Shown here: positions 32,639 through 59,587 of the stretch, piece by piece
Position numbering within the stretch: position 1 is the first letter of the stretch
How the letters are laid out: the number at the start of each line of letters is the position of its first letter
DNA from: Microbulbifer sp. HZ11
GTDB taxonomy: Bacteria > Pseudomonadota > Gammaproteobacteria > Pseudomonadales > Cellvibrionaceae
Reading direction: 5' to 3'
NCBI RefSeq assembly: GCF_000708675.1
Contig: NZ_JELR01000001.1
Span: 1,116,001-1,180,000 of the forward strand
DNA: 64,000 nt
Translations under genes and position numbers: made by a program
Notes under the pieces: generated by a model
Database searches by the model: none
The model's input: only the letters and a program-made list of their open reading frames with translations
What the model was told of the DNA's origin: nothing

Positions 32639-34093
32639 TCACACTTCCGATAAGTAAACGGTTTTCTTGTCCACGTACTGCTCAAGTCCGTAGCGACCAT
32701 CCTCGCCACCAATGCCGGATAGTTTCCAACCGTTGTGGAAACCCTGATGCTGCTCGCCAATACCGCGGTTCACATACACCTCTCCCACTTCCATTTCCGC
32801 AATGGACTGGTGGATATAGCGCAGGTTTTCGGTAAACAGGTAGGCAGAGAGGCCGTACTCGCTGTCGTTGGTGTAGGCGATAGCCTGATCGATACTGGAG
32901 ATCTTCACGATCGGTAGAATCGGACCGAAGGTTTCCTCGTGCACCAGAATGTTGTCCTGCTGAACATTGGTGAGCACGGTCGGCTCGTACCAGTTGCCCC
33001 CTTCGAAGCCAGCAACTTGCGCGGGCTTGCCGCCAGTTAGTAGCTCCGCCCCCTGGGCGATACTTTTCTGCACCAGCTCGTGGATATGCTCGATTTCACG
33101 GGCATTTACTTTGGGCCCCATCTGCGAGGATTCATCCAGCGGGTTACCCACTTTCAACGCCTTCACCTTGGGCAGGAACCTGGCCATAAATGCGTCGTAT
33201 ACCTTCTCGTGTACGTACAGGCGCTCCGCACAGGTACACACCTGGCCGCAGTTGGCATAGCGGGTCCACAGTGCGGCTTCCGCAGCCTTATCCAGATCTG
33301 CATCTTCCATCACGATAAATGGCGCCTTACCACCCAGTTCCAGCATGACCGGAATCATGTGTTTGCCACTGGCCTGGTGAATAATCTGGCCGGCGCGAGT
33401 GCTGCCGGTCATGGTGATCATCGCGGTCAGCGGGCTTTCGCACAGGGCCTGGCCAACAATGGAGCCTTCACCGTTGACGATATTCAGCACGCCTGCGGGA
33501 ATACCCACTTCGTTGGCAATGCGACCCAACTCCATGGTGGTGAGCGGTGTTTCCTGAGTTGGCTTGATGACAATGCTATTGCCGGTCACCAACGCCGGGC
33601 CGATCTTGCGCCCAGCCAGAGCCAGCGGGAAGTTCCACGCGGTAATCGCCACAACAACGCCGCGAGGTACCTTGTGGATGTAGATTTTTTCGTCTGTATT
33701 ATCAGAGGGCAGGATATCGCCCTCCAGCGTCAGCGCGTTGTCGCAGGCGTACTCAATAAACGTTGCGGTCGCGTTGACTTCATCGCGGGCCACACCAATC
33801 AGCTTGCCCTGCTCTTTTACCAGCAGCTCTGCCAGACCTTCGGTCTCGGCACGAATCGCCGCGGCAAACTTGCGCAACAGCGCCGCGCGATCACGAGCGG
33901 TGCACTTCGCCCAGGCCTTCTGTGCCTGCTTGGCATTGGCCAGCGCCGCTTCCGCATCTTCCGCACAGCCTTTGGGAATATTCCCCAGCACCTCACCGGT
34001 GCTCGGGTTCAGCACTTCAATAACGCCATCGGCCCTGGAGGCAATGTATTCGCCGTTAACGAAGTTCACGTTGTTTTTAATTGCAATTGCCAT
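32639..34093 (-). CDS. AldA-like aldehyde dehydrogenase, candidate 3,6-anhydro-L-galactose dehydrogenase
   Basis: A 484-residue NAD(P)-dependent aldehyde dehydrogenase. The catalytic cysteine is in [14 protein letters not shown] (about residue 283), [11 protein letters not shown] holds the general-base glutamate, and [22 protein letters not shown] is the C-terminal AldA-type signature. Overall it is closest to lactaldehyde dehydrogenase AldA. Its place at the end of a cycloisomerase - Zn-dehydrogenase - SDR operon suggests oxidation of 3,6-anhydro-L-galactose to its acid, the first step of the known pathway. It begins 4 bases after the SDR stop, with GGAG upstream. Confidence 0.88.
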
Positions 34094-34096
34094 GGG

Positions 34097-35944: not shown

Positions 35945-37084
35945 TTAAGATTGCTTGACCAGATGCGGTCGCAGCAGAGTTTCATCAAAGGTCACCCCGG
36001 TGCCCGGCTCGTTGGAGGCAACGGCGCGGCCGTTTTCCAGCACGATCGGACGGGTGGTGTATTCGTCGATAGGGAAGGAATGGACTTCCAGATAGCCCGC
36101 ATGGGGCTGGCTCGCCATCAGGGATACATGCAGCTCGTGCATACCGTGGCTGCACACTGGCAGGTTGTGTGCGTAGGCCAGCTCTGCCACTTTCAGCCAG
36201 CCGGTAATACCGCCGATATTGGAAGCGTCCGGCTGCAAGAAACCGAGTTTGGCCTGCGCAATGGCATAGGTGAACTCGTGCACTGTGTGCAGGTTTTCGC
36301 CCATGGCCAGTGGAATATTGATGGCATCAGCAATACGGCCGTAACCCAGATAATCGTCGGGAATGGTGGGCTCTTCGAACCAGGTAATATCGCAGTGATC
36401 AATGGCGCGACCAAAGCGCACCGCCTGTTCGATGGTCATGGAGTAGTTGGCGTCCACCATAAAGGTGACATCGTCACCGATCAGCTTTCGCACCGCTTCC
36501 ACGCGCGCCACGTCTTCCCGATAGTCTTCCTTACCCACCTTGATCTTCACGGCATTAAAGCCGCGGGCCAGGTAGCTGGAAATGTTGTCCAGCAATTTGG
36601 GCTCGGAGAAATTCAGGTCGATACCGCCGGCATAACACTTGCTGGAATTGCCGGCACCACCAGCCACCTTCCACAGGGGCAGGCCCAGACGTTTGCACCG
36701 GAGATCCCACAGAGCAATATCCACCGCAGACAGCGCAAAGCTCAGCAGGCCACCGCGGCCCACATAATGCAGATGGGTTTGAATTCCCTCCCAGATGGCA
36801 AAGATATCCGACGCATCGCGACCTTCCAGCAGCGGCTGAATATCGTCCTGTAACAGGGAGTAGATGGCGCGACCACCGCGACCACCGGTGTAGGTATAGC
36901 CAACGCCTTCCAGTCCATCCTGACAGCGCACGCGGAACACCAGCACCTCAAAATGAGTGTGGTCACCGTGGCGCGCATCGGTGAGCACTTCCGCCAGAGG
37001 AACCTGGTAATACTCAACCTTGGTGGCGGCGATGGTGCTCGAAGACAGCAGCTCTGTAGCCTGCTCTTGTACTTCCATCAACAT
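35945..37084 (-). CDS. Enolase-superfamily protein, candidate 3,6-anhydro-L-galactonate cycloisomerase
   Basis: A 379-residue member of the mandelate racemase subgroup. The base lysine is in [10 protein letters not shown] (about residue 180), metal ligands in VDANYS, FEEPT and GENLHT, and the histidine in [10 protein letters not shown] (about residue 315). It is not a canonical galactonate dehydratase, and its place with an aldehyde dehydrogenase in an agarose locus matches the cycloisomerase that opens 3,6-anhydro-L-galactonate to 2-keto-3-deoxygalactonate. It is the first gene of the operon running to 32639. The start at 37084 is chosen by domain length; 37120 is also open. Confidence 0.85.
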
Positions 37085-37158
37085 GGAGGAACCCCAAAAT
37101 CCGTGATTTTTTATAAGCACAACGTTTATTCACTGATTAGACTTCAATCAATGGAACC

Positions 37159-39828: not shown

Positions 39829-39857
39829 CCACCGAACTTTCTACAGCGCTCGAAAAA

Positions 39858-42281: not shown

Positions 42282-42335
42282 CGTAGTACTCGTTTTAATT
42301 ATTGGTTGCCTGACGCAAATACTTGAAAGAATTTA

Positions 42336-43490: not shown

Positions 43491-43503
43491 ACTCGCATTC
43501 CGC

Positions 43504-44277: not shown

Positions 44278-44319
44278 GAAGACTTCTCACTTTCTTGAAC
44301 GGTCCACCGGTGCGCGCGC

Positions 44320-45885
44320 TCAGGCGCGCACCATGGCCGCTTCGATTTCTTCGATGGATTTGTTTTTGGTTTCCGGCAGCAGGCGGAACAGCAAAGCAAG
44401 GCTCACGCTGATACAGGCGGCGTAGAACAGGAAGATTTCCGTCGCGCCCATATTGTTCAATTGCCAGGGGAAAAACTGCTGCACGAAGTAGCTGACGGTA
44501 CTCACAATCAGTGCAAAGAATGGAATCGCCACACCGCGAACATGAGTGGGGAAAATTTCCGAGAAGAGCACCCACATCACCGGCCCGATGGACAGGTTAA
44601 ACGCGGCGATAAAACACATGATGCCCATTAATACCAACTTGGCGTCGATCTGAATAGCCTGCTGGATCAGCGCACCCTCATTGGCCCGCGCGGTCGCTTC
44701 GCCGAGCGTCTGATACATGGCCTGTTTGAAGGCCACATCGCTCTCAAAAGCAGTACCCACCAGGGCCTGCAAGCCTGACACATCAATATTCGCATCCGCC
44801 AGCGCCTGCAGCGAAGCCGCGCTCAACTCATAGCTGGCCTGACTGAACGCCCAGCTGCACAGAAACAGACTGACACCGCCCCACGCAAGGCCGAACAGCA
44901 CCAGCGGGCGGCGCCCAAGACGATCAATCAGCAGCAGCGCCAGAATCGTAAACATCACGCTCACTACGCCGACGATCACCGCCTGCATAAAGGCGGCATT
45001 GGTGCCGATACCCACCTGCTCAAAAACGGTGGGTGCGTAGAACATGATGGCGTTGATACCAGTAATCGGCTGAGCGATGGCGATCACCAGGCCAACCCAG
45101 AAGGCGGTGCGCAGGCGCGGCTTGAAAATCTCCGCCACCTGCTGGCGGAAGCTGCCGGTGGGTGCGGCCGCAGCACTCTCCTGAATTTCCTGAATCTGCG
45201 GTTCGATATGTCCAGCGGGGATCAATTTGCCCATCACGGCGCGAGCCTCATCCAGGCGCCCTTTCAGCACCAGCCAGCGCGGGCTCTCGGGAATAGCCAG
45301 CAACATCAACAGCCAGATCAGCGCTGGGATCACCTCCACTCCAAGCATCCAACGCCAGGTGTACTGATCGATCCCAAGCGCGCTTACCCAGGCGGCGTCC
45401 GCGTTGGACGCCTGCAGAATCAGGTAGTTGGCAAAGTACGCCGCCGACAGCCCCACTACGGTCGTGATCTGGTTCATGGAGACCAACTTGCCGCGCATAT
45501 TGGCCGGGGCGATCTCGCCGATATACATGGAGGCGAGAGACAGGGAGGTAAATGCAAGGCCACCGAGGAAGCGTGCCGCCACCAGCATTTCAAAATTGGG
45601 GGCGAGCACCGAGCCAATGGCAGAAAGAAGATAAAGAGCGGCGATAATCAGCAGCGCCGATTTACGGCCCCAGGCGTCACAAATGCGCCCGGTGACCATC
45701 AAGGCAAAAATCACCCCGAAACCGGGCGCACTGACCACGGTCCCAACCTGCAAGTCGGACAGGGTAAATTCGGCCGTAATAAAGCGTACGGTGCCGGAGA
45801 TCAGCGCCGCATCCAGTCCAAAGATGAACCCGCCAAATGCCACGATCGCGGCAAATTTGAAGGCGGTCAATTGGAATCCTCTCAT
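44320..45885 (-). CDS. Sugar-porter family MFS transporter
   Basis: A 521-residue, 12-helix sugar/H+ symporter of the XylE/GalP type. The family signatures GRICDAWGRKSALL, PESPRWLVLKGR, QPITGINAIMFYAPTVF, IDRLGRRPL and the terminal PETKNKSIEEIE are all present. A large loop between helices 9 and 10 (about residues 355-420) contains inserted sequence found in marine members. The start at 45885 has AGAGGG upstream, and the frame's earlier extension to 46017 is rejected. As first gene of the operon it would import galactose and perhaps anhydrogalactose. Confidence 0.92.
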   Translation of the reverse strand: MRGFQLTAFKFAAIVAFGGFIFGLDAALISGTVRFITAEFTLSDLQVGTVVSAPGFGVIFALMVTGRICDAWGRKSALLIIAALYLLSAIGSVLAPNFEMLVAARFLGGLAFTSLSLASMYIGEIAPANMRGKLVSMNQITTVVGLSAAYFANYLILQASNADAAWVSALGIDQYTWRWMLGVEVIPALIWLLMLLAIPESPRWLVLKGRLDEARAVMGKLIPAGHIEPQIQEIQESAAAAPTGSFRQQVAEIFKPRLRTAFWVGLVIAIAQPITGINAIMFYAPTVFEQVGIGTNAAFMQAVIVGVVSVMFTILALLLIDRLGRRPLVLFGLAWGGVSLFLCSWAFSQASYELSAASLQALADANIDVSGLQALVGTAFESDVAFKQAMYQTLGEATARANEGALIQQAIQIDAKLVLMGIMCFIAAFNLSIGPVMWVLFSEIFPTHVRGVAIPFFALIVSTVSYFVQQFFPWQLNNMGATEIFLFYAACISVSLALLFRLLPETKNKSIEEIEAAMVRA

Positions 45886-46024
45886 CGGATAACCCTCTTT
45901 ATTGTTATGGGTACTCCGACCGCTGATACCTGCCACCCTCTTCAGGGCGTTAGCGTCAAGTATCTTCTGGTTGCACGGTCGGCCACCACTTGATGTTGGC
46001 CCATCATACAACCCCAATCCATTT

Positions 46025-46035
46025 TTGTTAACAAT
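46025..46035. promoter_or_regulatory. Operator-like palindrome TTGTTAACAA (site 4)
   Basis: The core TTGTTAACAA (46025-46034) lies between the divergent MFS operon and dgoA, about 140 and 130 bases from the two start codons. A TATACT hexamer at 46066-46071 is a candidate -10 for dgoA. Confidence 0.65.
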
Positions 46036-46165
46036 TAACTATATACAAATATTCCTGAATCCCTTTATACTGCATCCATCCTGTCCCGTCACTGGGAATA
46101 GATCGTTAAAAAAGACCAGCAAGAAAAATCACAGGAACCTAATAGGAAACCAACAGGAAACTACG

Positions 46166-46825
46166 ATGCTGAGCCAGCAGTTCCACCAGGCTCTGGAAGC
46201 CTGCCCTCTTATCGCCATTATCCGCGGCGTTACCCCGGACGAAATCGATATGGTTGCCAATACCCTGCTGGAAGCCGGTGTACGCGCTATCGAGATCCCA
46301 CTGAATTCACCGGTAGAGCCCCTTAAGAGCATCGAGCGGCTGGCCCAGATCATGGACGAATTCGGCGAATCCACCATCTGTGGCGCCGGTACCGTACTCA
46401 CATCGGAACAGGTCCAAAGTGTACAAAATGCAGGCGGAAAGATCATTGTTTCGCCAAATTGCGACCCGGAAATCATTCGGGCCACTATCGACCGGGATCT
46501 GATCTCTGTTCCTGGCTGCCTCACCCCGACCGAAGCCTTCAGCGCACTCAAGGCCGGTGCCCGGGTGTTGAAAATGTTCCCGGTGGCGGACTTCCCGGCC
46601 CAGTACCTGCAATCCCTGGGTGCGGTGGTCCCGAAAGATATCCTCACCCTGGCGGTGGGCGGCATCACCGATACCAATATGGAAGAGTACTGGAAAGCCG
46701 GTGCCCGCGGATTCGGCCTCGGCTCCAATATTTACGCCGCCGGCGACAATGCCAGCCAGATCGCGGACAAAGCGCGGATCATGGTGGACGCGGCCAACCG
46801 CGCCAAAGCACTAGGGAACCTCTGA
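46166..46825 (+). CDS. dgoA: 2-dehydro-3-deoxy-6-phosphogalactonate aldolase
   Basis: A 219-residue class I aldolase splitting KDPGal into pyruvate and glyceraldehyde 3-phosphate. PLIAIIRGVTPDE, AIEIPLNSP (catalytic glutamate), GAGTVL, SVPGCLTPTEAF, the Schiff-base lysine in ARVLKMFP (about residue 135) and LAVGGIT match DgoA; the EIPLNSP block distinguishes it from Eda. The ATG at 46166 has CAGGAAA upstream. The last codons and the TGA stop (after GNL) are supplied by the inserted element at 46815; without it the frame would read ALGA and stop. The catalytic parts are intact. Confidence 0.95.
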   Translation: MLSQQFHQALEACPLIAIIRGVTPDEIDMVANTLLEAGVRAIEIPLNSPVEPLKSIERLAQIMDEFGESTICGAGTVLTSEQVQSVQNAGGKIIVSPNCDPEIIRATIDRDLISVPGCLTPTEAFSALKAGARVLKMFPVADFPAQYLQSLGAVVPKDILTLAVGGITDTNMEEYWKAGARGFGLGSNIYAAGDNASQIADKARIMVDAANRAKALGNL

Positions 46826-47259: not shown

Positions 47260-48114
47260 TCAGAGACCAAGCGACGCACTGACCCGCGCTGCAGATTCCC
47301 GCACTGCCCGCACCAGTTCTTCCCGCTCCAGCTTTTTACCTACTACCGACGTCAGGCTGGATACCGCCAGTGCGGCAATGGTCGCCCCATCCGGCTGCCC
47401 CACCAATGCAGCGCAATCGGTCACGCCATCGGTCAATTCACTGGTCCGGAGTTCAAACCCCTGATCGCGCACCGACAGCAAAGACCGCTCCACCTCCGCA
47501 GCGCCATCCATATCGGGCCCTCTTTTCTGGAGCTCTTTGTCGAGAAGGCCCGCGCGGCGCCCGGCCTCGCAGTTTGCCAGCAGCACCCGTCCGGAAACGG
47601 TCTGCAGCAACGGGAAAAGCGTACCCTCATTGAACGACAGGGAAACCGGCCCGGGGCTCTGCACCTGCAGCACCACCATCAGCTGCCCCTGGTGGATCAC
47701 ACTCAGGTGACAGGATTGGCCCAGACGCGCCGCCAGCGCCTCCATCTCCGGCTGCGCCGCAAAGCGCAATTGCGATACTGGCGACAGGGTACGGGTCAGC
47801 TCCAGCAGCTTGAGAGACACCCGATATTTGCCAGACACTTCATCCCGCAGCAAGTAACCCCGGGACTCCAGGCCAACCAGCACCCGGAAGATCTCACTAT
47901 TGGTGCGCCCGATACCCTGGGCAATATCCGACTGGGACAGCGGCAGCGATTCGGCGGCGAGAAATTCCAGTATTTCCAGCGCCTTGTCCAGCGCGGGCAC
48001 CGCGTATTTATTCGCGCCATTGCCATTCTTCTGGCCGCCGACCTTTTCGCTCACTTTCTCGGGCACCACTTCCCCCTGACCCATCGAGTTTATCGGTTTG
48101 TTATACCCGCGCAT
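47260..48114 (-). CDS. IclR-family transcriptional regulator
   Basis: A 284-residue IclR protein. The winged helix is residues 38-100 (ALDKALEILEFLAAE, LSQSDIAQGIGRTNSEIFRVL), and the IclR effector domain follows (LRFAAQPEMEALAARLGQSCHLSV, GRVLLANCEAGRR). It is divergent from the 48292-54214 operon across a 177-base AT-rich region, so it most likely controls that operon in response to its substrate. The first 37 residues are a disordered extension; an internal start is possible. Confidence 0.9.
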   Translation of the reverse strand: MRGYNKPINSMGQGEVVPEKVSEKVGGQKNGNGANKYAVPALDKALEILEFLAAESLPLSQSDIAQGIGRTNSEIFRVLVGLESRGYLLRDEVSGKYRVSLKLLELTRTLSPVSQLRFAAQPEMEALAARLGQSCHLSVIHQGQLMVVLQVQSPGPVSLSFNEGTLFPLLQTVSGRVLLANCEAGRRAGLLDKELQKRGPDMDGAAEVERSLLSVRDQGFELRTSELTDGVTDCAALVGQPDGATIAALAVSSLTSVVGKKLEREELVRAVRESAARVSASLGL

Positions 48115-48291: not shown

Positions 48292-49491
48292 ATGAGCAGC
48301 TCCGACAACGACCAACAGAAGCAAGGCACCCCGAAGCAGCAGACGGCGGAACCCATCGTCCTGCGTGGCATGACCTGGAACCATACCCGTGGCTTTACCC
48401 CCATGGTGGCGGCAGCCCAGCGCTTTGAAGAACTGAACCCCAATGTCACCATCCAGTGGGACAAGCGTTCACTGCAGGCCTTTGCCGACCACCCCATCGA
48501 CGACCTCGCCAGCCGCTACGACCTGCTGGTGATCGATCACCCCTGGACCGGTTTTGCCGCACGGGAAAAGGTCATCCTGCCCCTGGACGAGCACCTGCCC
48601 GCCGCCTTCCTCAAAGACCAGGAAGATAACGCCGTGGGACACTCCCACACCTCCTATCACTACGATGGCCAGCAGTGGGCCCTGGACGCCGCCACCCCGG
48701 TAGCGTCATTGCGCGCGGATCTGCTAGAAAAAAAGGGACTGGAAGAACCCCAAACCTGGGAAGATCTGATGGCACTGGCGGAAAAAGGCCTGGTGGCGGT
48801 GCCCAGTATTCCCCAAGACACCCTGATGAACTTCTACATGCTGTGCTCCGCCATGGGTGAAGATCCCTGTGTGGGCGAAGAAGAAGTGGTGAGCAAAGCG
48901 GTGGGGATCGAAGCCCTGGGCATGCTGAAGGCGCTGTCCGACAACCTGGATCGCCGCTGCTTCGACTGGAACCCCATCAAGGTGTACGAGGCCATGACCC
49001 GCAGTGACGACTTCGCCTACTGCCCCTTCGCCTACGGCTACGCCAATTACGCGCAGCCCGGCTATGCCCGCAAACTGCTGGAATTCCGCGATACCGTGAC
49101 TGCAGGCCCCAAAGGCGAACACCTGAAAACTACCCTGGGCGGCACCGGCCTCGCCATCTCCGCGCACACCAAGCACGCGGAAGTGGCCGCACAATTTGTG
49201 GAGTTTGCCGGTAACCCGGAACTGCAGGCCTCTTTCTATATCCAGTACGGTGGACAGCCAGGGCACCGCAAAGCCTGGACCAGTGAGTCAGCCAATCACC
49301 TGACCAACAACTACTTCACCAACACCCTGCCCACCCTGGACCGCGCCTTCCTGCGTCCACGCTACCATGGGCATATGTTTTTTCAGGACAACTCCGGCGC
49401 GCCCATTCGCAACTACCTGATGCACGGTGGCGACGCCAATACATTGCTCGATCACCTCAACGAGCTGTACGTAAAGTCCCGCCAAAACTGA
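48292..49491 (+). CDS. Extracellular solute-binding-protein-like protein without signal peptide
   Basis: A 399-residue protein with the fold of family 1 ABC sugar-binding proteins (AAAQRFEELNPNVTIQWDKRSLQAF, TPVASLRADLLEKKG, PQTWEDLMALAEKG, TTLGGTGLAISAHTKHAE). The N-terminus is polar and Gln/Thr-rich (SSSDNDQQKQGTPKQQT), with no Sec, Tat or lipobox signal, so it should remain in the cytoplasm. No permease or ATPase gene is nearby. It is the first gene of an operon with two CaiB/BaiF CoA-transferases; I recall similar signal-less proteins beginning with a MTWxHxRG block next to such genes in other proteobacteria. The role is unknown: a ligand-holding subunit or sensor are possibilities. Confidence 0.8.
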   Translation: MSSSDNDQQKQGTPKQQTAEPIVLRGMTWNHTRGFTPMVAAAQRFEELNPNVTIQWDKRSLQAFADHPIDDLASRYDLLVIDHPWTGFAAREKVILPLDEHLPAAFLKDQEDNAVGHSHTSYHYDGQQWALDAATPVASLRADLLEKKGLEEPQTWEDLMALAEKGLVAVPSIPQDTLMNFYMLCSAMGEDPCVGEEEVVSKAVGIEALGMLKALSDNLDRRCFDWNPIKVYEAMTRSDDFAYCPFAYGYANYAQPGYARKLLEFRDTVTAGPKGEHLKTTLGGTGLAISAHTKHAEVAAQFVEFAGNPELQASFYIQYGGQPGHRKAWTSESANHLTNNYFTNTLPTLDRAFLRPRYHGHMFFQDNSGAPIRNYLMHGGDANTLLDHLNELYVKSRQN

Positions 49492-49506
49492 CAACCACTG
49501 AAACCT

Positions 49507-50706
49507 ATGATGCAACCGTTAAAAGGCATAACCGTTCTCGAATTCAGCCAGTACCTGGCAGGCCCCTACGCGGGCCTGCGCCTGGCCGATCTGGGCGCGC
49601 GCGTGATAAAGGTAGAGCGCCCCGGCAGCGGTGACGCCTGCCGCAGGCTCGCCACCAAAGACCTGTGGGTGGATGGCGACAGCCTGCTGTTCCACACCAT
49701 TAACCGCAATAAAGAATCATTTTGTGCGGACCTGAAAAACCCGCACGACCTGAATACGGTACGCGAACTGATCGCGCAGACGGATGTGATGACCCATAAC
49801 TTCCGCCCCGGTGTGATGGAAAAAATTGGCCTCGACTATCCCAGTGTCAAAGCCCTCAATGCGCAGATTATTTACGGAGAAGTCTCCGGTTACGGCAACG
49901 AAGGCCCCTGGGTCCACAAACCCGGGCAGGACTTGCTGGCACAGGCGGTTTCCGGCGTGGGCTGGCTCTCCGGTAATCACAGTGACGGCCCGGTACCCCT
50001 AGGCCTCGCCATTGCTGATATGCTGTGCGGAACGCATCTCGCCCAGGGCATTCTCGCCGCCCTGGTGCGCCGGAAAAAACTCGGCATCGGCGCAAAAGTG
50101 CAGACGAGCCTGCTGGAGTCCATGGTGGATTTTCAGTTCGAAGGTCTCACCACCTACCTGAACAACGGCCGCCAGCTACCCAGCCGTAGCGAGATTGCCA
50201 ATGCCCACGCATTTCTCGGCGCGCCCTACGGTATCTATCAAACCAGCGACCACTGGATTGCCATTTCCATGGGGCCACTCGGGCCGCTGGCCGAAGCACT
50301 GCAGTGCACAGCCCTGAATAAAAGTGACAGTGAAACCTTCAGCCAGCGGGACGCGATTAAAGCCGTACTGGCAGAACACCTGCGCACCCAATCCACCGAC
50401 CATTGGATGACACGCCTGAATGCCGCCGGTATCTGGGCGTCGGAAGTGGTGGATTATGACCAGCTGCTCCACCACCCCGCCTTCAAGGCCGTAGCCATGG
50501 AGCTGCAGGTTTCCCGCCCCGCCTCCTCGGCTGACCACAGCTCATCTGAGAAAAGTACAGTTACCGTAAACACCACCCGTTGCCCACTGCGGATCAACGG
50601 CCAGCGCTTTACCAGTGCTAAAGCCGCCCCACGCCTGGGTGAAGATACCGATCATATTCGCAACAGCTTGCTAGAAAGTTCAAATCAGCGGGAGGCTGCA
50701 CAATGA
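49507..50706 (+). CDS. CaiB/BaiF CoA-transferase family protein (first copy)
   Basis: A 399-residue class III CoA-transferase. [34 protein letters not shown] is the family's N-terminal block (residues 10-43), the acyl-carrying aspartate is in LAIADMLCG (about residue 169), and [18 protein letters not shown] matches the ligand loop. Such enzymes move CoA between carboxylic acids. The C-terminal third has a Ser-rich stretch. It begins 15 bases after the solute-binding-like gene and overlaps the second copy by 4 bases. Confidence 0.9.
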
Positions 50707-51857
50707 GCCAGTTCCAAAAACCGCTCGCCGGTATGCTGGTACTCGACTTCTCCCAGTTTCTGTCCGGTCCTTCTGCGGCTTTGCGCCTGGCGGACCTGGG
50801 TGCACGAGTAATCAAAATCGAGCGCCCGGAGCGCGGCGAAGACGGCCGTAACCTGTACCTTTCCGACTGCGTGCTGGAGGGGGAATCTACCCTGTTCCAC
50901 GCCATCAACCGCGACAAGGAAAGTTACTGTGTCGACCTGAAAGATCCGACCGAGCGCGAAGAGCTCAACACGTTGATCCGCAAAGCGGACATCCTGATCG
51001 CCAATTTCCGTCCCGGCGTCATGCAGCGACTGGAACTCGACTACAACCATGTAAAAGCCATCAACCCACGCATTATTTACGGTGAAATTACCGGCTACGG
51101 CGACACCGGCCCCTGGGCCGAACGTCCCGGACAGGATTTGCTGCTGCAGGCGCTCTCCGGCCTCACCTGGCTGTCCGGCAGCCGCGACGATGGCCCGGTA
51201 GCCATGGGTGTACCGGTTGCAGATATTTTTACCGGCGCGCAGCTGGTGCAGGGCATTCTCGCCGCCGCTTTTGCCCGCGAATTTACTGAAAAAGGCAGCC
51301 TGGTACAGATCAGCATGCTCGAAGCCATGCTGGATTTTCAGTTCGAGCCACTCACCATCGCCTTACAGGACCCGCAACAAACCATCGAGCGCGCCGTCGT
51401 CAATGGCGCCCATGCACTGGTGGCCGGCGCCTACGGTTTCTACCAGACCAACAACGGCTACATCGCGCTCTCCATGGGCCGCGTGGAAGACCTTGCGCGA
51501 CTGCTCGACTGCCCCGCACTACTGCCCTACTGCGACCCGACCCTCGCCTTTACCGAGCGGGATGCCATCAAGCAGATTCTTGCAGATCACCTCCCCTCCC
51601 AGACAACCGCGCACTGGCTCTCGCTACTGGAACCGGCGGATATCTGGTGTGCGGAGGTACTCGACTGGAATCAACTGTTGGCACACGACGGTTTCAAAAC
51701 CCTCGACATGCTGCAATCCCTGCCCATGTCTGGTGGCAGCCGGTTGACCACCAGCCGCTGCCCCATTCGCATCGACGATCAATTCCTGTGGGGAAGCCAT
51801 CCAGCGCCGAAACTGGGACAACACCAGCGCGCCATCAATAACGAAATCAAAAAATGA
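50703..51857 (+). CDS. CaiB/BaiF CoA-transferase family protein (second copy)
   Basis: A 384-residue paralogue of the preceding gene, sharing the same blocks ([39 protein letters not shown]) and a conserved aspartate in VPVADIFTG (about residue 173). The ATGA overlap suggests coupled synthesis, which fits a heterodimer; class III CoA-transferases form interlocked dimers. It could equally be a second enzyme with another specificity. Confidence 0.9.
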
Positions 51858-51889
51858 GAGATGAGAAGTGAAAATGAGAGGAACCGGTC

Positions 51890-52684
51890 ATGAATGAGCG
51901 CCATTCGCAATCGAATGTTTCGCTATCAAAGTCTACCCCCGGGGTGGCCCATATTACTTTACAGCTAGCGCCAGCGAATGCCTATCACGAGTCATTCCTG
52001 CGGGAAATCGGCATTGTCATTCGCACCCTGGAACAGGACGACAGCGTACGCGTGGTGGTGATCAACAGCGCGCTGCCGAAATTTTTCTGTGCCGGCGCCG
52101 ATATCAAAGTGTTTGAAAGCAACAGCGTACAGCAAAACCTCGCCCTGGTCGCCGCAGCACGGGAGAACGCCAACGCCATTGAGAACAGCAGCAAGATTTA
52201 TATTGCCGAAGTCGCCGGCCACTGCCTCGGAGGCGGCCTGGAAATTGCCATGGCCTGCGATTTTATTTTCGCGGCAGAAGGCAACTACCGCTTCGGCCTG
52301 CCGGAAATCAAATTGGGGCTGATCCCCGGCAATGGCGGCACCCAGCGTCTGGTCCGCCGGATCGGCCGCCGCGCCGCCATGGAGATCCTGCTTACCGGGG
52401 ACACCTTCGGGCTCGCCCAGGCCCAGGAGCTGGGTTTGCTGGACGGAGTTTACAGCGCGGAATCCCTGGCTGCCGGCACCGCCGAGTTTGCCGAAGAAAT
52501 CGCCCGCGGTCCCGGCCGCGCCATCGCGGCCACCAAGCGTGCACTGCGTGAAGGCAGTTCCCTGCCGCTGGATCGCGGCCTCGCTCTGGAGGCGGAGCTG
52601 GCAGATTCTCTCTATGAAACCGCAGATGCGGTGGAGGGACTGAAAGCCTTCGTTGAAAAACGCGTACCAGTATTTAATCAGTAG
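51890..52684 (+). CDS. Enoyl-CoA hydratase/isomerase family protein
   Basis: A 264-residue crotonase. The oxyanion-hole segment FFCAGADIKVFE and GHCLGGGLEIAMACD, and LPEIKLGLIPGNGGTQRL, contain both glutamates used by true enoyl-CoA hydratases. It probably hydrates the CoA ester formed by the CoA-transferases. GAGAGGAA precedes the ATG at 51890. Confidence 0.92.
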   Translation: MNERHSQSNVSLSKSTPGVAHITLQLAPANAYHESFLREIGIVIRTLEQDDSVRVVVINSALPKFFCAGADIKVFESNSVQQNLALVAAARENANAIENSSKIYIAEVAGHCLGGGLEIAMACDFIFAAEGNYRFGLPEIKLGLIPGNGGTQRLVRRIGRRAAMEILLTGDTFGLAQAQELGLLDGVYSAESLAAGTAEFAEEIARGPGRAIAATKRALREGSSLPLDRGLALEAELADSLYETADAVEGLKAFVEKRVPVFNQ

Positions 52685-52750
52685 CGTCCGACCGGTAGCA
52701 CCAAACCAACAGACTCGACCGAACAACAAACAAAAAATGCGACGGAGAAG

Positions 52751-54214
52751 ATGATGAGTACACAGATAGCGGAAACCGCCCAACAACATTACCAGTGTTA
52801 TATCGACGGTGAATGGGTCGACAGTGATAGTAAGCTCCCGGTGGAAAATCCCGCGAACGGCAAAGTATTTGCCAGTGTCCCGGACTGCACCCTGGCACAG
52901 GCTGACACCGCCCTCGCCTCCTCGCAGGCGGCACTGCAGAGCTGGAAAATGCTCCCCGCCATCGAGCGCGGCCGCCACCTGTTCAACCTGATTGAAGCCC
53001 TCAAACCCAAGCGCGACCTGTTTGCCAAACTGCTGGTACTGGAACAGGGCAAAACCCTGGCCGAGGCCTACGGCGAGTTCGACGATACGCTGAACTACCT
53101 CACCTATTCCGCCGAAGCGGCACGCCGTATCGAGGGCAACATCTTCCCCTCAGACAATGCCGGCGAACAGCTGTGGATTCAGAAGGTCCCCTACGGTGTG
53201 ACCGTCGGCCTGTGTGCATTTAACTACCCACTGGCCCTGATCGGCCGCAAGGTAGGCCCGGCACTGGTCACCGGCAACACCATGATCGTAAAACCCCACG
53301 AGGCCACCCCGGTGACCGCCATGGAATTTGCCAAAGCGGTGGAAGAAGCGGGAATCCCCAAGGGGGTGATCAACATCATCAGCGGCAGCGGAATCGCCGT
53401 GGGCGAGCACCTGGTAAAAAGCCCCATTACCCAACTGGTCACCCTCACCGGCAGCATCCGTGCGGGCCAGGCCATCTGCCGCGCAGTTGCGGAGAACGTC
53501 ACCGCAGTCTCTCTGGAACTGGGGGGCAAGGCCTCGTTTATCGTGCTCGACGATGCGGACATCGACAAGGCCGTGGATGCGGTGGTCATCTCCCGCTACG
53601 CCAACTGCGGGCAGGTATGTATCTGTGCCGAGCTGGTGCTGGTGCACGAAAAGGTCGCGGATGAATTCACCCGCAAGGTACTGGAAAATGTAAAAGCGCT
53701 AACAGTAGGCAACCCCATGGACAACCCCAGCATGGGCCCATCGGTCACTGCCCAGGGTCTGGACCGCGTGGACTCCATCGTGCAGGAAACCATCAATGCC
53801 GGCGCCACCCTCGCCTGCGGCGGTGCCCGCCCGGAAGGCGCAGAGTTTGAACACGGCAACTGGTACCAGCCTACTGTACTCACCGACGTGACCGCGGATA
53901 TGGCCGCTGCGCGGGAAGAAATCTTCGGCCCGGTACTGCCCATCGTCAAAATTAAATCCTTTGATGAAGCGGTAGAAATCACCAACCGCCGCAACGATGG
54001 CCTCAGCTGCTACCTGTGGAGCAACGATTACCGGGTAATTATGGACGGCATCAGCCGCCTGGAAGTAGGCACCGTATTCGTAAACAAACAGATCGTCGGC
54101 TATATCCAGGGCTACCACTCCGGCCACAAGCGCAGCGGTATTGGTGGTGAGGACGGCATCTACGGTATCGAAGGCTACCTTCAAAAACGCGCGGTATACT
54201 TAAATTACAATTAA
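52751..54214 (+). CDS. AldA-like aldehyde dehydrogenase (second)
   Basis: A 487-residue aldehyde dehydrogenase with the catalytic cysteine in [14 protein letters not shown] (about residue 291), [11 protein letters not shown] with the general base, and the AldA-type C-terminus [19 protein letters not shown]. It is the last gene of the operon and would oxidise an aldehyde to the acid that the CoA-transferases then use. An ATG one codon later is better spaced from GGAG. It resembles the 32639 gene product but is not part of the same operon. Confidence 0.9.
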
Positions 54215-54299: not shown

Positions 54300-56201
54300 C
54301 TAAGGAAATGCGAGCAGGGACACCTTGGTGGTGCCGGCCGGCTCAACGATTTGCGTTACTGTTTCCCCGTTGGTCCAGGTCGCACTCAATTGCCTGGGCT
54401 CTGAACAGCCTGCCAGGCCGAAATAGACATATCGGTTGTAACCACGCTCGTAGCCGGCGTTGCCAATACCAACCCGCCGGGTTTGCGTTTGACCACACGC
54501 GCTTAATTGCAGGATGCCATCGAGCGGGGTGAAGTCAGGTGATTTACCTTCGCCCAGATCGATGACAAGAGACTCTCCAACCTTCTCGGTCTCATTTCTG
54601 AACAGGTGCCACTGGCCGTGCTCGTTGGCATACAGCAAGTCCTGTTTTCCGTCCCGATCAAAGTCCAGGGCAACACCACCGAGGCCCCAGGAGCCTAGGT
54701 CGTTTGAGACCACTTGATGGTTGTGCGCTATCTCGAAGGTTCCGTTGCCCTTGTTGCGGTAAATACTGGATTGAGTGGGGGTTACCAGGTTGCCGCGCTG
54801 TACGAAGAACAGGTCCAAGTAGCCGTCGTTATCAAAATCCGCGACTACCGCACCGGTGCTGTTAGACGGAGCATCCAGGCCGGCCTGCGCAGTAACATCC
54901 ACGAATGTGCCATCGCGATTTTCCAGAAGTACGTTGCTCAGTGCATCTTTGTGTCTATTGCTTTGCGGGCTCGGGTTCTCTGCCAACCCCTTTACCACAC
55001 CGGCGGTAGGAGACCAGATTTTGCCTCCGATTCGCCAGTTACTATTGCCGATATAACCGGCGTGTAACCCCTGCTCCTGCTGGTGATCGGGCCAGCCAAG
55101 GGAATCGCTATTAATCAGATCAAGTGTTTTACCACTGTGGGTTTCACCGGGAAATTTGTATTGATAGGCAGATTCACCGATGTAGATCTGACGGTGCGGC
55201 CAGGGGCTCTGGTAATTGACCAACTTTAGAACGTCACCTGCCGCCAGATCGAACTCGAAAGTATCGCGGCGCACATAGAATCCCCAGGTTCCGGTTTCTT
55301 CATCGTAAAAGGTTTCACCGCTTTCAAAGGGATTTGCCCGGCTCAAAACGATATCGAAGTCGCCGTCGTTATCGAAGTCGATTTCTACTGCACTGGTAAC
55401 ATCCCGATAATTAGCCGGTAGCCACTGTTTCGTCACTTCTTCAAAGTCAAAATCGCCCTGGCCGCGATGCAATGAGATGGGGCCATGGCCATACAGTAGA
55501 AGATCCTGCTGACCATCGCCGTCGATATCGGTAATCAGGGTTCGCTGCCCATCGCCATGCACCCTGGCATTCAGGCGGCCGGCTAACTCAAGGGTGCCAT
55601 TGTGTGTATTGCGATACAGGTAGTTTTCGCTCTCACCGCGTTTTTCTTTGGAAGGAAACGCAAAGTTCAATAGGTCCGCCGCGCCGTCGTGGTCCAGGTC
55701 GGTGAATTGCACAGTGCGACCGCGCATATGTATCAGCGGTTCGGGGAAATCTTCTAGGCGTTCAAAGTTACGCTCGTCATCCACCCGGTAAATGACCGAG
55801 TTGCGTGCATTCGAGCCAGAGCCGCCACCGCGGGATACGATGATTTCCAACGCGCCGTCCTGGTCAAAATCGGCGACCGATACACCGTGAGAGTCTCCCA
55901 TCAGGAGATCATAGGGCTGTCCAAAATTTCCGGCGTTATTCCAGAGTATCCGCACACCGAAGCCATGATCATTCAGAATCAGATCTGGCCAACTATCTTG
56001 ATCGAGATCCGCCACGGCCGGAGCACCCCACTTCCGCTGGTTTTTCTGCTCGCCAAAATAGCCAGTTTTTACCGCTGCAAACCGTATGCCGTCATTAACT
56101 GGTACGGCTCCAGCCGTGCGGTGCTCACAGCCCAACAGGCTAACGGAGGAAATTGCAACCAGCATCGCAGCCAGACACATCTTTGGAACCATTGGACTCA
56201 T
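54300..56201 (-). CDS. FG-GAP/VCBS repeat lipoprotein
   Basis: A 633-residue exported protein with lipobox SVSLLGC (cysteine about residue 25). It contains at least seven calcium-binding repeats of the form DxDxDGxxDLxx (VADLDQDSWPDLIL, VADFDQDGALEIIV, FTDLDHDGAADLL, ITDIDGDGQQDLLL, VADFDNDGYLDLFF, ALDFDRDGKQDLLY), implying a beta-propeller. The C-terminus GIGNAGYERGYNRYVYFGLAG resembles the ASPIC/UnbV domain. Such proteins often lie in polysaccharide loci and may bind substrate at the cell surface. It lies 82 bases downstream of the sulfatase on the same strand. Confidence 0.88.
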   Translation of the reverse strand: MSPMVPKMCLAAMLVAISSVSLLGCEHRTAGAVPVNDGIRFAAVKTGYFGEQKNQRKWGAPAVADLDQDSWPDLILNDHGFGVRILWNNAGNFGQPYDLLMGDSHGVSVADFDQDGALEIIVSRGGGSGSNARNSVIYRVDDERNFERLEDFPEPLIHMRGRTVQFTDLDHDGAADLLNFAFPSKEKRGESENYLYRNTHNGTLELAGRLNARVHGDGQRTLITDIDGDGQQDLLLYGHGPISLHRGQGDFDFEEVTKQWLPANYRDVTSAVEIDFDNDGDFDIVLSRANPFESGETFYDEETGTWGFYVRRDTFEFDLAAGDVLKLVNYQSPWPHRQIYIGESAYQYKFPGETHSGKTLDLINSDSLGWPDHQQEQGLHAGYIGNSNWRIGGKIWSPTAGVVKGLAENPSPQSNRHKDALSNVLLENRDGTFVDVTAQAGLDAPSNSTGAVVADFDNDGYLDLFFVQRGNLVTPTQSSIYRNKGNGTFEIAHNHQVVSNDLGSWGLGGVALDFDRDGKQDLLYANEHGQWHLFRNETEKVGESLVIDLGEGKSPDFTPLDGILQLSACGQTQTRRVGIGNAGYERGYNRYVYFGLAGCSEPRQLSATWTNGETVTQIVEPAGTTKVSLLAFP

Positions 56202-56282
56202 AGTAGGAAGCCTAAAAAATCGGCCACCGAAAGTACTTGGGCGGCCGAGAAAACTGATGATTTACAGATAATTTCTGAAAGT

Positions 56283-57725
56283 TCAATCCGTGGAAAAGGT
56301 TTTATCAAACCGTGGCATACCGTGTTGACGCCACAGGGCGCCTTCTTTGTGGATATGGAACCAGCCGGGCTGTGCGTTATCCCATGACCACACCTCCATC
56401 TCGCGCACCATGTCACGCAGCATCAGTGGGTGCTTGTCGGCAAGATCACGTGTTTCTTCTTTGTCCTGTTCGATATTGAACAGCTTCCACGGAGTGTTCT
56501 CCCCCACCTTGACCGCCTTCCACTCATTGCGGCGCACTGCGGCATCGCTATAGCTGCCGCGGTGGCGCAGGGCAAAAATTAGCTCATCCTTGTGCGGCGC
56601 CTCGCCGGATTTCAGGAACGGGACCAGGTTTTTTCCATCGAGCTTATTTCCCGGTTCAAGCTCCGCACCGGCTAAACTTGCGAAGGTCGGGAACAGGTCC
56701 AATGCTTTGACCGGGTGTTCAAAGCGCGAACCCGCTTTGATCTGTTTCGGCCAGTGCATCACCATTGGCGTGCGGAATCCACCCTCAAATACACTGCCCT
56801 TCCCCTCTCTCAGCGGATCGTTGTTGGCACCATATCTTTTATCACCGCCGTTATCGCTAAAGAAAACGATCAGGGTGTTGTCCAGCTGCCCGGTACTCTT
56901 GAGTGTGTCCACCAGCTCGCCAACACCGCGATCCATGGCGTACACCATGCCGGCGTAGGTCCTGCGATCTTTGTCCTTGATATCGGGAAACTTCGCCATA
57001 TCTTCCTGCTTGGCTTGCAGTGGTGAATGGGGCGCGTTGTAGGCCAGGTACAGGAAAAACGGCTTGCCGGTTTCTGCGGCTTTGCGCACAAAATTGACGC
57101 CCTCGCGGGAAAGGGCATCGGTGATGTATTCGTTCTCTTCTACTTCCTTGCCATTATGTTCAAGCGGTCTGATGTAGGGATCAATATTGGTGAGTCCCTG
57201 TGCTTTCTGATTGGCATATAGTTTTTTGAACAGCTCGGGGAAGTAGTTGTGCCCCCCACCCAGAAAGCCGTAAAACTCGTCAAAGCCGCGTCGATTGGGA
57301 TGGTATTCCGGCGCCTCTCCCAGGTGCCATTTGCCCACTGCCCCGGTGAAGTAGCCATTTTCCTGTAACACTTTGCTGACGAACTTATCTTCCGTAGGAA
57401 TCCCCACAAAAGAACCGCGGACTGGTAAATTGAACTGAGAGCCGATCTTGTGGGGATAGCGGCCGGTCATCAGTGCCGCCCGGCTTGGCCCGCAAAATGG
57501 GTGTGCGGTATAGGCCTCATTGAAGGTCATGCCCTCGCTGGCAAGTTTGTCCAGATTCGGTGTAACAATGTCTTTCGAGCCATTAAAGCCAACATCTGCG
57601 TAACCCAGATCATCTGCAAGAACTACCACAATGTTGGGTTTGTCGATCTTCTCTGCGGTAGCCGCAAAAGCACCACCTGCCGCCAGACTCAATAGCGTTA
57701 CCGCCAGTGTTCTCAACACATCCAT
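56283..57725 (-). CDS. Type I sulfatase (arylsulfatase A-like), exported
   Basis: A 480-residue sulfatase of the S1 type with a Sec signal (LAVTLLSLAAGGAFA). The formylglycine motif is HPFCGPSRAALMTGRYP (cysteine about residue 78), of the CxPSR kind modified by FGE. NIVVVLADDLGYADVG supplies the metal aspartates and VGKWHLGEAPEYHP the catalytic lysine and histidine. It would remove sulfate esters from an algal polysaccharide; which one is not visible. No sulfatase-maturating enzyme is encoded in the window. Confidence 0.93.
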   Translation of the reverse strand: MDVLRTLAVTLLSLAAGGAFAATAEKIDKPNIVVVLADDLGYADVGFNGSKDIVTPNLDKLASEGMTFNEAYTAHPFCGPSRAALMTGRYPHKIGSQFNLPVRGSFVGIPTEDKFVSKVLQENGYFTGAVGKWHLGEAPEYHPNRRGFDEFYGFLGGGHNYFPELFKKLYANQKAQGLTNIDPYIRPLEHNGKEVEENEYITDALSREGVNFVRKAAETGKPFFLYLAYNAPHSPLQAKQEDMAKFPDIKDKDRRTYAGMVYAMDRGVGELVDTLKSTGQLDNTLIVFFSDNGGDKRYGANNDPLREGKGSVFEGGFRTPMVMHWPKQIKAGSRFEHPVKALDLFPTFASLAGAELEPGNKLDGKNLVPFLKSGEAPHKDELIFALRHRGSYSDAAVRRNEWKAVKVGENTPWKLFNIEQDKEETRDLADKHPLMLRDMVREMEVWSWDNAQPGWFHIHKEGALWRQHGMPRFDKTFSTD

Positions 57726-57752
57726 ACTTCTCTCGCTTCTATTTCCCGAATT

Positions 57753-59297
57753 TTATTTGAGGAGATCTTTCATCTGTAAATCAAACCGGGACAGTACCGG
57801 GTCTTCTGTCCTTTCCAGCTCTTCACGCATCAGACGCGCCATATGTACCAGCTGGTCGCGGTACTTCGGCTTGTCGAACAGGTTGTTTATTTCAATCGGG
57901 TCTTTGCGCAGGTCATAGAGTTCGTCGCGGGCATCACCGGGGTTCCACACGAATTTCATATCCGGCGTACGCAGCGCGCGAATGCCGAACCAGCCGCCGT
58001 TGTACCACTCGTATGCGTAGAGCACGGTGTCCTTGCGTCCCTTGTCGGCAACGTCACCCTTGTCCATCAATGCACGCAAGGAGCGCCCGTCCTGAACGCC
58101 GTCTTCCGGCAACCGCATGAGCTCTGCCAGGGTCGGGGTAATATCCAGCATGGAGACCTGACGGGTGACGGATTTCGGTTGCACTTTGGGACTGCGAATC
58201 ATCAGCGGCATACGCATCAGTTCGTCGTAGGCGTAGGGGCCTTTGTCATACAAGCCGTGCTCGCCGAGCATGCTGCCCTGGTCACCAACAAACACGATAT
58301 GCAGATTTTCGTAAAGGCCGGTTTGTTTTGCGGTTTCGAGGATTTCACCCACTGCGCGGTCGATCATCGCCATGGCGCCGTAGTAGTAAGCGCGCATTTT
58401 CAGCCACTCCCCATCACTCAGGTGACTGACGTCGTGCCAGGGCCAGAACGGTTCGTCCTGGGACATGGGTTTGTTCACCCGTTTGCTCAGGTGGTTGGCC
58501 GGTAGTGTCAGGGTTTCAGGAGCGAACATACTGGCGTAAGGCTCCGGTACACGGTACGGCGGGTGCGGCTGATCGAAGCTGATTACCCCGAAAAAGGGCC
58601 GTTTTTCTTTGGCCGCTTTGCGCAGCAGGTCCTGGCCCGCTTTTACTTTTTTGTAAGTGCTGGTGTCTTGGTAGGTTCCAGGCAGAGTCTGGAAGTACTC
58701 GACCTTCTCACCATTGAAATAGTCCGCTTTTTCGCCTTCCGGTGCATTGGCTGCGGCCTTGTATCTGGCAATATTTTTCTGGATACCATAAGGCGTCAGC
58801 TGGCGCATACTACGGGACCAGTCCGCTTCCTTGATTTCTGCGGTGTAGTCTGCACCACGCAGGCGAACCCCCTGCGGGCCCAGGTGCCATTTGCCCACGT
58901 AACCGACGAAGTAGCCAGCTTCCTTGGCGCGGGCAATCAGGCCACCTTCGGACAGGTCAAGCTCAGAGAGACGGGAGTGATACAGGCCGACGTTATCGTC
59001 CAGCCCGGTTCTGTGTCCCCAACGGCCGGTAAACATAGCGGCACGGGAGGGAGAGCACAGTCCGGTGGTGGTCATGGCATTGTCAAAGCGCACGCTTTGC
59101 TCGGCGAGGGAATCGATATTCGGCGTAGATACAGGACCATCGCGGTAGGAGAAGGTATCGAACCGCATGTCGTCGAACATCAGGATCAATACGTTTTCAC
59201 GGTCACGCCTGGCTGATCCCGCTTCCGAGGGAGTTGCGACTGCGGAGGTTGCGCCCGCGAGTACACAGGCGAACACCCCTGCTAGCAATTTATTCAT
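57753..59297 (-). CDS. Type I sulfatase, exported (second)
   Basis: A 514-residue sulfatase. The signal peptide is KLLAGVFACVLAGATSAVA, so I use the ATG at 59297; the frame continues to 59354. The maturation motif is TTTGLCSPSRAAMFTGRW (cysteine about residue 81), the metal site begins LILMFDDMRFDTF, and VGKWHLGPQGVRLRG is the lysine/histidine block. The two sulfatases differ in the rest of the chain, so they likely act on different sulfate positions. The first sulfatase gene follows after 27 bases, so the two probably form one operon with the FG-GAP gene. Confidence 0.93.
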   Translation of the reverse strand: MNKLLAGVFACVLAGATSAVATPSEAGSARRDRENVLILMFDDMRFDTFSYRDGPVSTPNIDSLAEQSVRFDNAMTTTGLCSPSRAAMFTGRWGHRTGLDDNVGLYHSRLSELDLSEGGLIARAKEAGYFVGYVGKWHLGPQGVRLRGADYTAEIKEADWSRSMRQLTPYGIQKNIARYKAAANAPEGEKADYFNGEKVEYFQTLPGTYQDTSTYKKVKAGQDLLRKAAKEKRPFFGVISFDQPHPPYRVPEPYASMFAPETLTLPANHLSKRVNKPMSQDEPFWPWHDVSHLSDGEWLKMRAYYYGAMAMIDRAVGEILETAKQTGLYENLHIVFVGDQGSMLGEHGLYDKGPYAYDELMRMPLMIRSPKVQPKSVTRQVSMLDITPTLAELMRLPEDGVQDGRSLRALMDKGDVADKGRKDTVLYAYEWYNGGWFGIRALRTPDMKFVWNPGDARDELYDLRKDPIEINNLFDKPKYRDQLVHMARLMREELERTEDPVLSRFDLQMKDLLK

Positions 59298-59587
59298 TAA
59301 GTCCACCCGAACTTTATTTTTATCAACAGCGGGGTTTCTCAGGTCTTTGCACATAAGAGCTGAAAGTCACGCTTGAACATCCAAGATAGAAATAATATAA
59401 ACATATGATGTTTTCGTGCAAGTGGTTCTTGCCTTGCTGCGGTCGGCCTACAGCGTCACTTCGACGGATTCGGGCAGGCAATAACCGTGTGCCGTGTTAG
59501 GGTAAAGTGGTGCGGCTGACTCGGCGCCCTCAGCAGGGCTACGCTATACACCGCTGATTTCAGAATAAAAACCGCGGATTACTCACC

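Follow-up and report, generated by a model that had tools for sequence, protein, structure and literature searches.

We analyzed a 64,000-nucleotide stretch of the Microbulbifer sp. HZ11 genome (here, the window), in which five forward-strand genes lie next to a divergent gene for an IclR-family regulator (Table 1). The first of the five encodes SBP1, a solute-binding protein (SBP) with a fold like that of maltose-binding protein (MBP), and is followed by genes for two class III CoA-transferases (CTs; CT1 and CT2), a crotonase-fold enoyl-CoA hydratase (ECH), and an aldehyde dehydrogenase (ALDH). A sequence-only reading of this DNA had proposed that a binding-protein fold without an export signal, and with no permease nearby, was recruited into the cytoplasm, perhaps to hold a substrate or CoA acceptor for the transferases. 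We find that the cytosolic location of SBP1 and its pairing with CTs are well supported. They point to a partnership in the breakdown of unusual sugars that is not described in the open-licence literature searched; that search, itself weak evidence, found no description of a cytosolic SBP paired with a CoA-transferase among the titles and abstract openings listed.

Gene order, strands, frames, and the divergent IclR gene are as the earlier reading gave them, in agreement with the coordinates and Pfam, and its assignment of the aldehyde dehydrogenase stands. SBP1 exceeds the Pfam cut-offs for both SBP_bac_8 (60.4 bits; cut-off, 27) and SBP_bac_1 (52.9 bits) and is encoded by a single copy in its own genome (E ≤ 0.01). 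CT1 and CT2, described as paralogues with a 4-base overlap, are 48% identical, cover PF02515 end to end (profile positions 1 to 366 of 366), and share the bases ATGA between their reading frames. Using what we take to be the crotonase glutamate motif, both glutamates expected of ECH are legible (GGGLEIAMACD and FGLPEIKLG); its closest solved structures are 2ppy and 5zai. No NCBIfam model matched SBP1 at E 0.001, and none exceeded its cut-off on the other operon genes among the matches listed (the best 25 of 73 for ECH and the best 25 of 45 for ALDH). The presence of a CT and a crotonase in one operon is the gene combination looked for in a CoA cycle of the CaiB/CaiD type; no CoA ligase gene lies within the operon, the only part of the genome checked for one.

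Table 1. Genes of the SBP1 operon and two genes of the neighboring agar locus (positions in the window)
Feature	Position	Strand	Profile or structure match
IclR-family regulator, divergent	47260..48114	-	Pfam IclR_C 73.9 bits, HTH_IclR 42.8 bits
SBP1, MBP-like solute-binding protein without signal peptide	48292..49491	+	SBP_bac_8/SBP_bac_1
CT1, class III CoA-transferase, catalytic Asp171, His234	49507..50706	+	PF02515 311.9 bits
CT2, class III CoA-transferase, CT1 paralogue	50703..51857	+	PF02515 311.1 bits
ECH, crotonase-fold enoyl-CoA hydratase	51890..52684	+	ECH_1 202.8 bits
ALDH, aldehyde dehydrogenase, paralogue in the L-3,6-anhydrogalactose dehydrogenase group	52751..54214	+	Aldedh 499.9 bits
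3,6-Anhydro-L-galactonate cycloisomerase (ACI)	35945..37120	-	5xd7 522.3 bits
Likely canonical L-3,6-anhydrogalactose dehydrogenase	32639..34093	-	3k2w 767.5 bits, 6j75 636.9 bits

A solute-binding protein family without an export signal

A genome scan with nine aligned SBP1 sequences returned at least 581 confirmed stretches encoding SBP1 relatives in one genome collection, from which 80 loci were retained. These 80, 17 loci, and 20 further stretches make up a set of 117 loci that is redundant in that it includes the window's own locus (L001) and two repeats (L010/L025 and L020/L120). In the records of 12 regions, the SBP1 relative is called an extracellular or ABC (ATP-binding cassette) solute-binding protein in 10, and the gene is unannotated in the other 2.

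Several measures bear on whether a true upstream start could add a signal peptide. The frame 5' of the SBP1 ATG is devoid of any hydrophobic stretch. A motif search matched SBP1 in 110 of the 117 loci, and the N-terminal hydropathy of these proteins (108 values) has a median of -0.04, with only two values above 1.6 (both 1.79); these two, from L010 and L025, share the same N-terminal sequence, which begins at a questionable upstream start. With a looser pattern, which missed only L021 and L022, 111 distinct SBP1 sequences were obtained, and in 63 of them at most 22 open codons precede the first conserved motif, not enough to encode a signal peptide. In the 110 loci of the first search, the ATG closest to the conserved motif (I/M)TW(N/D/S)H is usually 8 to 12 residues ahead of it, an ATG two residues before it being the Met that belongs to the motif. 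As a control, ten exported-looking SBPs from the same loci gave hydropathy values of 1.93 to 2.39 over the first 45 residues, a stretch that differs slightly from the one scored for SBP1. A hidden signal peptide on SBP1 is thus ruled out by the upstream frame, the N-terminal hydropathy, and the codon count before the motif, and none was found in the core family.

A hidden Markov model (HMM) of the SBP1 family gave 418 to 625 bits to five members, all of which were in its training set, and at most 22 bits to exported SBPs and to a second family, SBP2, described below. By these scores, the SBP1 family is a discrete one. Identity of 51 relatives to the window protein ranges from 57 to 84%, with dozens of invariant residues, and the degree of conservation judged from this alignment is enzyme-like. 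A search for viral or phage relatives of SBP1 found none. At about 48677-48690, the window SBP1 reads WALDAATP where others read WALALDAATP or similar, two residues short of all 11 other relatives checked; this gap is consistent with loss of one 6-base tandem repeat unit, whether real or an assembly slip.

The absence of a permease nearby was confirmed: no BPD_transp_1 or BPD_transp_2 permease is encoded within the window, and the nearest transporter among the window genes annotated is a sugar transporter of the major facilitator superfamily (MFS; 44320-46017). Elsewhere in the genome, BPD_transp_1 gave 12 matches in seven clusters, each with its own binding-protein gene by Pfam (SBP_bac_5, SBP_bac_11 in two, NMT1_2, PBP_like_2 in two, and SBP_bac_8 fused to the permease). 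Since every such set has its own SBP, none is spare for SBP1, which rules it out as an orphan component of a BPD_transp_1 importer in this genome. The fused case (L177:1854-4166, on contig C4) joins the genome's only other SBP_bac_8 domain and a permease domain in one 770-residue frame. Three BPD_transp_2 matches are all distant from the window. An ABC importer is present in some alphaproteobacterial SBP1 loci, and ten SBPs of such loci look exported; in five regions inspected, each importer is accompanied by a further SBP gene of its own. ABC genes were also seen in 3 of the 80 loci (L020, L026, and L083).

Pairing of SBP1 with class III CoA-transferases

A class III CT (1e-20) is encoded in all 117 SBP1 loci. 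The CT nearest to SBP1 lies on the same strand in every case, at a distance of at most 60 nt in 95 loci and at most 200 nt in 105; with starts estimated, the median gap is 1 nt, and the genes overlap in 57 loci. The 12 loci outside these 105 comprise six Hymenobacter fusions (described below), L066, L084, L128, and L137 to L139. The nearest CT is downstream of SBP1 in 102 loci and upstream in 15, so the pairing outlasts reversal of gene order. It is also kept when the other genes vary: among the 80 loci, ECH occurs without SBP2 in 32 and SBP2 without ECH in 43, both occur in 1, and neither occurs in 4.

The association was also approached from the transferase side, in 398 Pseudomonadota genomes where the SBP1 and CT1 searches each scored at most 4 candidates per genome. 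SBP1 was found in 18 of the 398 (1e-40) and CT1 in 16 (E ≤ 1e-80, 21 matches). By coordinates, all 21 close CT1 relatives adjoin SBP1 or a CT that itself adjoins SBP1. In a search of 200 genomes at 1e-40, with at most 9 candidates scored, the next CTs among the matches listed reached 254 and 235 bits, versus at least 345 for SBP1-linked ones, and no SBP1 was present in the 18-kb surroundings of these two. CTs of 208 bits rank lower among the matches listed and belong to the divergent SBP1 loci L138 and L139. Other divergent relatives, in Variovorax and in another Sinorhizobium operon, likewise pair with a CT and ECH, and the pairing as a whole spans Gamma-, Alpha-, and Betaproteobacteria, Bacteroidota, and a Bryobacteraceae metagenome-assembled genome. 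In the core family, SBP1-CT gene pairing is near-obligate. With this conserved association with CaiB/BaiF genes strong in both search directions, no upstream signal peptide in the core family, and no importer without a binding protein of its own among the BPD_transp_1 sets of this genome or the importers inspected at other SBP1 loci, the part of the sequence-only reading that placed a sugar-binding fold in the cytoplasm beside a CT pair is well supported.

In a tree, the first and second CTs of the pairs separate into two clades, CT1 and CT2, according to gene position (77 first and 77 second; supports, 0.998 and 0.674), 17 CTs that occur singly having been given no position. In six Hymenobacter loci (L038 [11345-13723], L040, L046, L048, L051, and L062), the pair is a single open frame of 792 to 835 residues that follows SBP1 closely and starts with CT1, a linker but no stop codon separating it from CT2. 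These fusions point to a CT1-CT2 heteromer, a hint that the two proteins may together make up a heteromeric class III CT. All 199 CT sequences, from both paralogues, retain the catalytic Asp, and His is found at the position of YfdE His233 in 170 of the 199. The closest solved relative of CT1 is YfdE (4hl6), in which Asp173, the residue aligned with CT1 Asp171, is the covalent site according to the portion of PMC3720670 drawn on here. Heteromeric class III CTs are known, namely, the benzylsuccinate-type alpha2beta2 enzyme and the succinyl-CoA:L-malate (alpha-beta)6 enzyme, and phenyllactate CoA-transferase occurs in complex with a partner enzyme (passages of PMC5592240); a further CT partner would therefore have precedent.

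Because alignment of SBP1 to MBP alone with hhalign gave no significant score, a multiple alignment including E. coli MBP was used to place the ligand site. The alignment has 52 positions at or within two residues of the 17 residues listed as maltose contacts; 42% of these positions are conserved in at least 95% of SBP1 sequences, versus 14% of the 294 others, and none of 369 circular shifts gave as strong a clustering. Of the 17 contacts themselves, only 6 are conserved to this degree. The contact list includes Tyr155 and Trp340, which stack on the sugar, and Lys15, Asp65, and Glu111, which have been linked to domain closure (part of PMC3080849). The SBP1 conservation pattern points to one shared ligand type, to judge from the alignment, and the ligand is probably anionic, since the invariant residues include Arg33, Lys58, Arg59, and His83. 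The remaining contacts are those that we take to bind maltose in MBP. The suggestion that SBP1 holds a substrate or CoA acceptor fits this pattern and is retained below as a proposal.

Locus architecture and the sugar context

SBP1 loci fall into three types. Type A, SBP1-CT1-CT2 with ECH and ALDH, is that of the window and occurs in other Gammaproteobacteria, Hirschia, and marine Bacteroidota. Type B, in Bacteroidota, has SBP1-CT1-CT2-SBP2-Gfo/Idh-MaoC with a RhaT- or FucP-like symporter, and type C, in Alphaproteobacteria, has MaoC-CT-SBP1 or SBP1-CT with variable extras (amidohydrolase, L-rhamnose mutarotase, Gfo/Idh, MR_MLE, or an ABC importer). An ECH cluster was present in 33 of the 80 loci. 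Neighbors elsewhere include GH2 genes, a fucosidase, L-fuconate dehydratase, and UxuA, and some loci are flanked by a cluster that we presume to be GH78-like from its sequence. As judged by these gene families, the common theme of SBP1-CT neighbors is sugar acids.

Several observations were made alongside. SBP2, a further SBP family that lacks a signal peptide, occurs in type B operons at 46 loci (e.g., L013:11436-12668), usually behind CT2; its 12-mer hydropathy over the first 45 residues is at most 1.42, and type B operons would thus carry two predicted cytosolic SBPs in addition to two CTs. In five loci, mostly from Mucilaginibacter (L085:17598-20236, L070, L078, L079, and L082), genes for a RuBisCO-like protein and an SBD_N/NBD_C kinase come after the type B core; four of the five also encode an Asp/Glu racemase-like protein, a set that recalls apionate-type pathways. 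Genes labeled by eye as P450-like (L035 and L052) and ferredoxin- or ferredoxin-reductase-like lie near some operons (L035, L047, L052, L055, and L059) and resemble, again by eye, the 6-O-methylgalactose demethylase set. In Flammeovirga (L064:3438-4934, L063, and L065), a caspase-like Peptidase_C14 protein is encoded near a LacZ-type gene. The divergent SBP1 relative at L137:9426-11902 (also L138 and L139) lies right behind UxuA, a mannonate dehydratase, scanned in L137 only, with a short-chain dehydrogenase/reductase (SDR), a CT, and ECH about 6 kb downstream.

In the window, positions 32639-46825 form an agar utilization locus that encodes ACI, an ALDH resembling anhydrogalactose (AHG) dehydrogenase, two Agarase_CBM proteins, SDRs, and the sugar MFS transporter, with a KDGal kinase just upstream; by eye, the open reading frame at 45902-46825 is KDPG-aldolase-like. 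A published agarolytic pathway takes 6J75 as its reference for AHG dehydrogenase and 5XD7 as that for ACI (part of PMC10163077). The operon ALDH has the same closest solved structures, 3k2w and 6j75, at 458.7 and 457.5 bits; since the ALDH of the agar locus matches them better (Table 1), the operon enzyme is not favored as the canonical AHG dehydrogenase and, on these scores, is a more distant paralogue of that group. Of 48 genomes of the genus Microbulbifer, 9 encode SBP1 and 11 encode ACI. All nine SBP1 genomes are among the ACI eleven, with the two genes at an edge-to-edge distance of 8.3 to 11.4 kb; these counts come from related species and are not independent. Given the agar locus and this co-occurrence, the operon here looks like an accessory of agar use. 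Beyond the operon, at 54300-59354 on the other strand, an FG-GAP-like protein and two sulfatase-like proteins were identified by eye; an FG-GAP/UnbV-ASPIC cluster occurs in 8 of 97 loci, and a sulfatase-like cluster occurs in 4 of the 97.

Possible roles of SBP1 and comparison with known systems

We propose that SBP1 is the cytosolic ligand-binding partner of a heteromeric CT1/CT2 that activates a sugar-derived acid, a reading to which we give an even chance. An MBP-like sugar-binding fold would have moved into the cytoplasm and become a dedicated partner of CT1/CT2. In this scheme, ALDH would act on a sugar from agar whose aldehyde is free or masked and oxidize it to the acid; the SBP1 cleft would bind the acid and then present it to, or close over, the CT1/CT2 active site; and CT1/CT2 would form the CoA thioester via the conserved Asp. 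The crotonase, or the MaoC hydratase in other loci, could then carry out an elimination or a hydration at the position adjoining the thioester. Finally, the transferase would move CoA off the product and onto the next substrate molecule, in the way that CaiB works with CaiD on carnitine. CaiB/CaiD-like chemistry fits best by analogy with the carnitine system, as far as it is covered in part of PMC2131755. We infer the SBP1-CT contact, the identities of ligand and acid, which way the hydratase step runs, and the cycling of CoA. Among delivery, shielding, sensing, and catalysis, delivery or shielding as a subunit ranks highest. If SBP1 is a CT subunit, the maltose-binding fold would have been recruited, unusually, to the chemistry of a cytosolic enzyme, and a route for sugar acids by way of CoA thioesters would be indicated.

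A number of points weigh against this proposal. The interaction, structure, and activity of SBP1 with CT are what we infer from sequence, and no SBP1-CT gene fusion was found in the 117 loci. Even the longest SBP1 frames in the 398-genome search (571 and 551 codons) could not accommodate both proteins, and one candidate fusion (H98) was discarded, as the match, which is unannotated, only overlaps the end of the CoA-transferase gene under which it was listed. The SBP1-CT gap is 574 nt in L066 and 268 nt in L084; the nearest CT lies about 6.4 kb from the divergent relatives in L137 to L139, the immediate neighbor in L137 being UxuA; in L128, ECH sits between the divergent relative and CT; and in Jannaschia (L169), CT is in a divergent operon. 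The ligand-site argument depends on an SBP1-MBP alignment of very low identity and a 17-contact list that we mostly presume; with ten contacts, conservation is 39% of 36 positions versus 16% of 310, and 3 of 369 shifts reach this value. Two Microbulbifer genomes (G028 and G031) encode ACI without SBP1, and the operon is therefore not essential for the anhydrogalactose pathway. Finally, the type C loci also encode enolase-superfamily and altronate-type dehydratases, so CoA chemistry would be unneeded there for ordinary sugar-acid dehydration, which weakens the case for a CoA route as a replacement for an ordinary sugar-acid dehydratase.

A wider version of the proposal accommodates the dehydratases, and we regard it as possible but doubtful. 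SBP1 and its relatives may represent a widespread, undescribed class of complexes between a cytosolic binding protein and a CoA-transferase, in which acids derived from sugars would be handled as CoA thioesters, with the SBP-fold subunit giving specificity for the sugar acid. The crotonase or MaoC hydratase would take off a group that ordinary sugar-acid dehydratases cannot remove, such as an O-methyl or anhydro ether, from agar-, fucose-, or rhamnose-type sugars; standard dehydratases would stand alongside because the CoA route serves the modified sugar.

Two other roles seem unlikely to us. SBP1 could be an enzyme itself, for example, a lactonase, epimerase, or lyase acting on the sugar acid or its CoA ester, working beside CT and not as its subunit. 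Enzymes of the periplasmic binding protein fold exist, the dozens of invariant residues amount to enzyme-like conservation, and the divergent relative in L137 is directly behind mannonate dehydratase with CT about 6 kb away. However, the core family is tied to one CT subfamily and not to a reaction, as ECH, MaoC, ALDH, and Gfo/Idh interchange around it, and no known catalytic motif was recognized in SBP1. We would likewise be surprised if SBP1 were a cytosolic ligand sensor that switches on CT, or the IclR regulator, without handing over substrate. Conservation centered on the ligand loops and the tight gene pairing would suit such a sensor, as would the IclR-like gene in 42 of 80 loci, but in the other 38 none was seen within the stretch examined, and IclR-family regulators usually bind effectors themselves.

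That SBP1 is an ordinary ABC-importer binding protein, with its signal peptide or permease overlooked, is very improbable: the supra-cut-off Pfam matches and the names given to relatives favor it, but the relatives examined are without a signal peptide, the seven BPD_transp_1 clusters have their own SBPs, and 52 of 80 loci encode a secondary transporter of the RhaT or MFS type within the stretch examined. The extracellular or ABC solute-binding label of the family appears wrong. Polysaccharide-locus operons do move as blocks, yet a coincidental neighbor carried in a catabolic cassette is scarcely credible for a pairing seen in both directions, through order reversal and gene replacement, across several phyla and classes.

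Returning to SBP1 as a CT partner, a functional parallel is the CaiB/CaiD carnitine system, where a CoA-transferase and a crotonase act on a hydroxy acid and CoA is passed between product and substrate (as outlined in part of PMC2131755). That system has one CT, no binding-protein partner, and the CoA ligase CaiC, whereas the operon here has two CTs and no ligase; CaiE, its suggested accessory protein, is of another kind than SBP1. Heteromeric class III CTs, composed of a pair of CT subunits or of a CT with a bound partner protein, resemble the proposed assembly, but no SBP-fold partner is described in the passages of PMC5592240 drawn on here, and both paralogues keep the catalytic Asp in our case. 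Succinyl-CoA:mesaconate CoA-transferase with its MaoC-type mesaconyl-CoA hydratase (same passages of PMC5592240) is like the type B and C loci; it differs in its dicarboxylic acid substrate and lack of an SBP. YfdE, an acetyl-CoA:oxalate CoA-transferase, is like CT1 in its aligned Asp173 and in the His233 position, mostly kept, but is a dimer of a single gene product that uses oxalate and has no SBP partner. Bug/TctC proteins encoded near CaiB/BaiF genes in Burkholderiales are of a different family and carry signal peptides. The fold of SBP1 itself is matched in sequence profile by the MBP-like proteins trehalose/maltose binding protein (1eu8), Lin1841 (5ysb), and SmoF (7nbz), which by name serve importers; SBP1 differs from them in lacking an export signal and in its pairing with a CoA-transferase.

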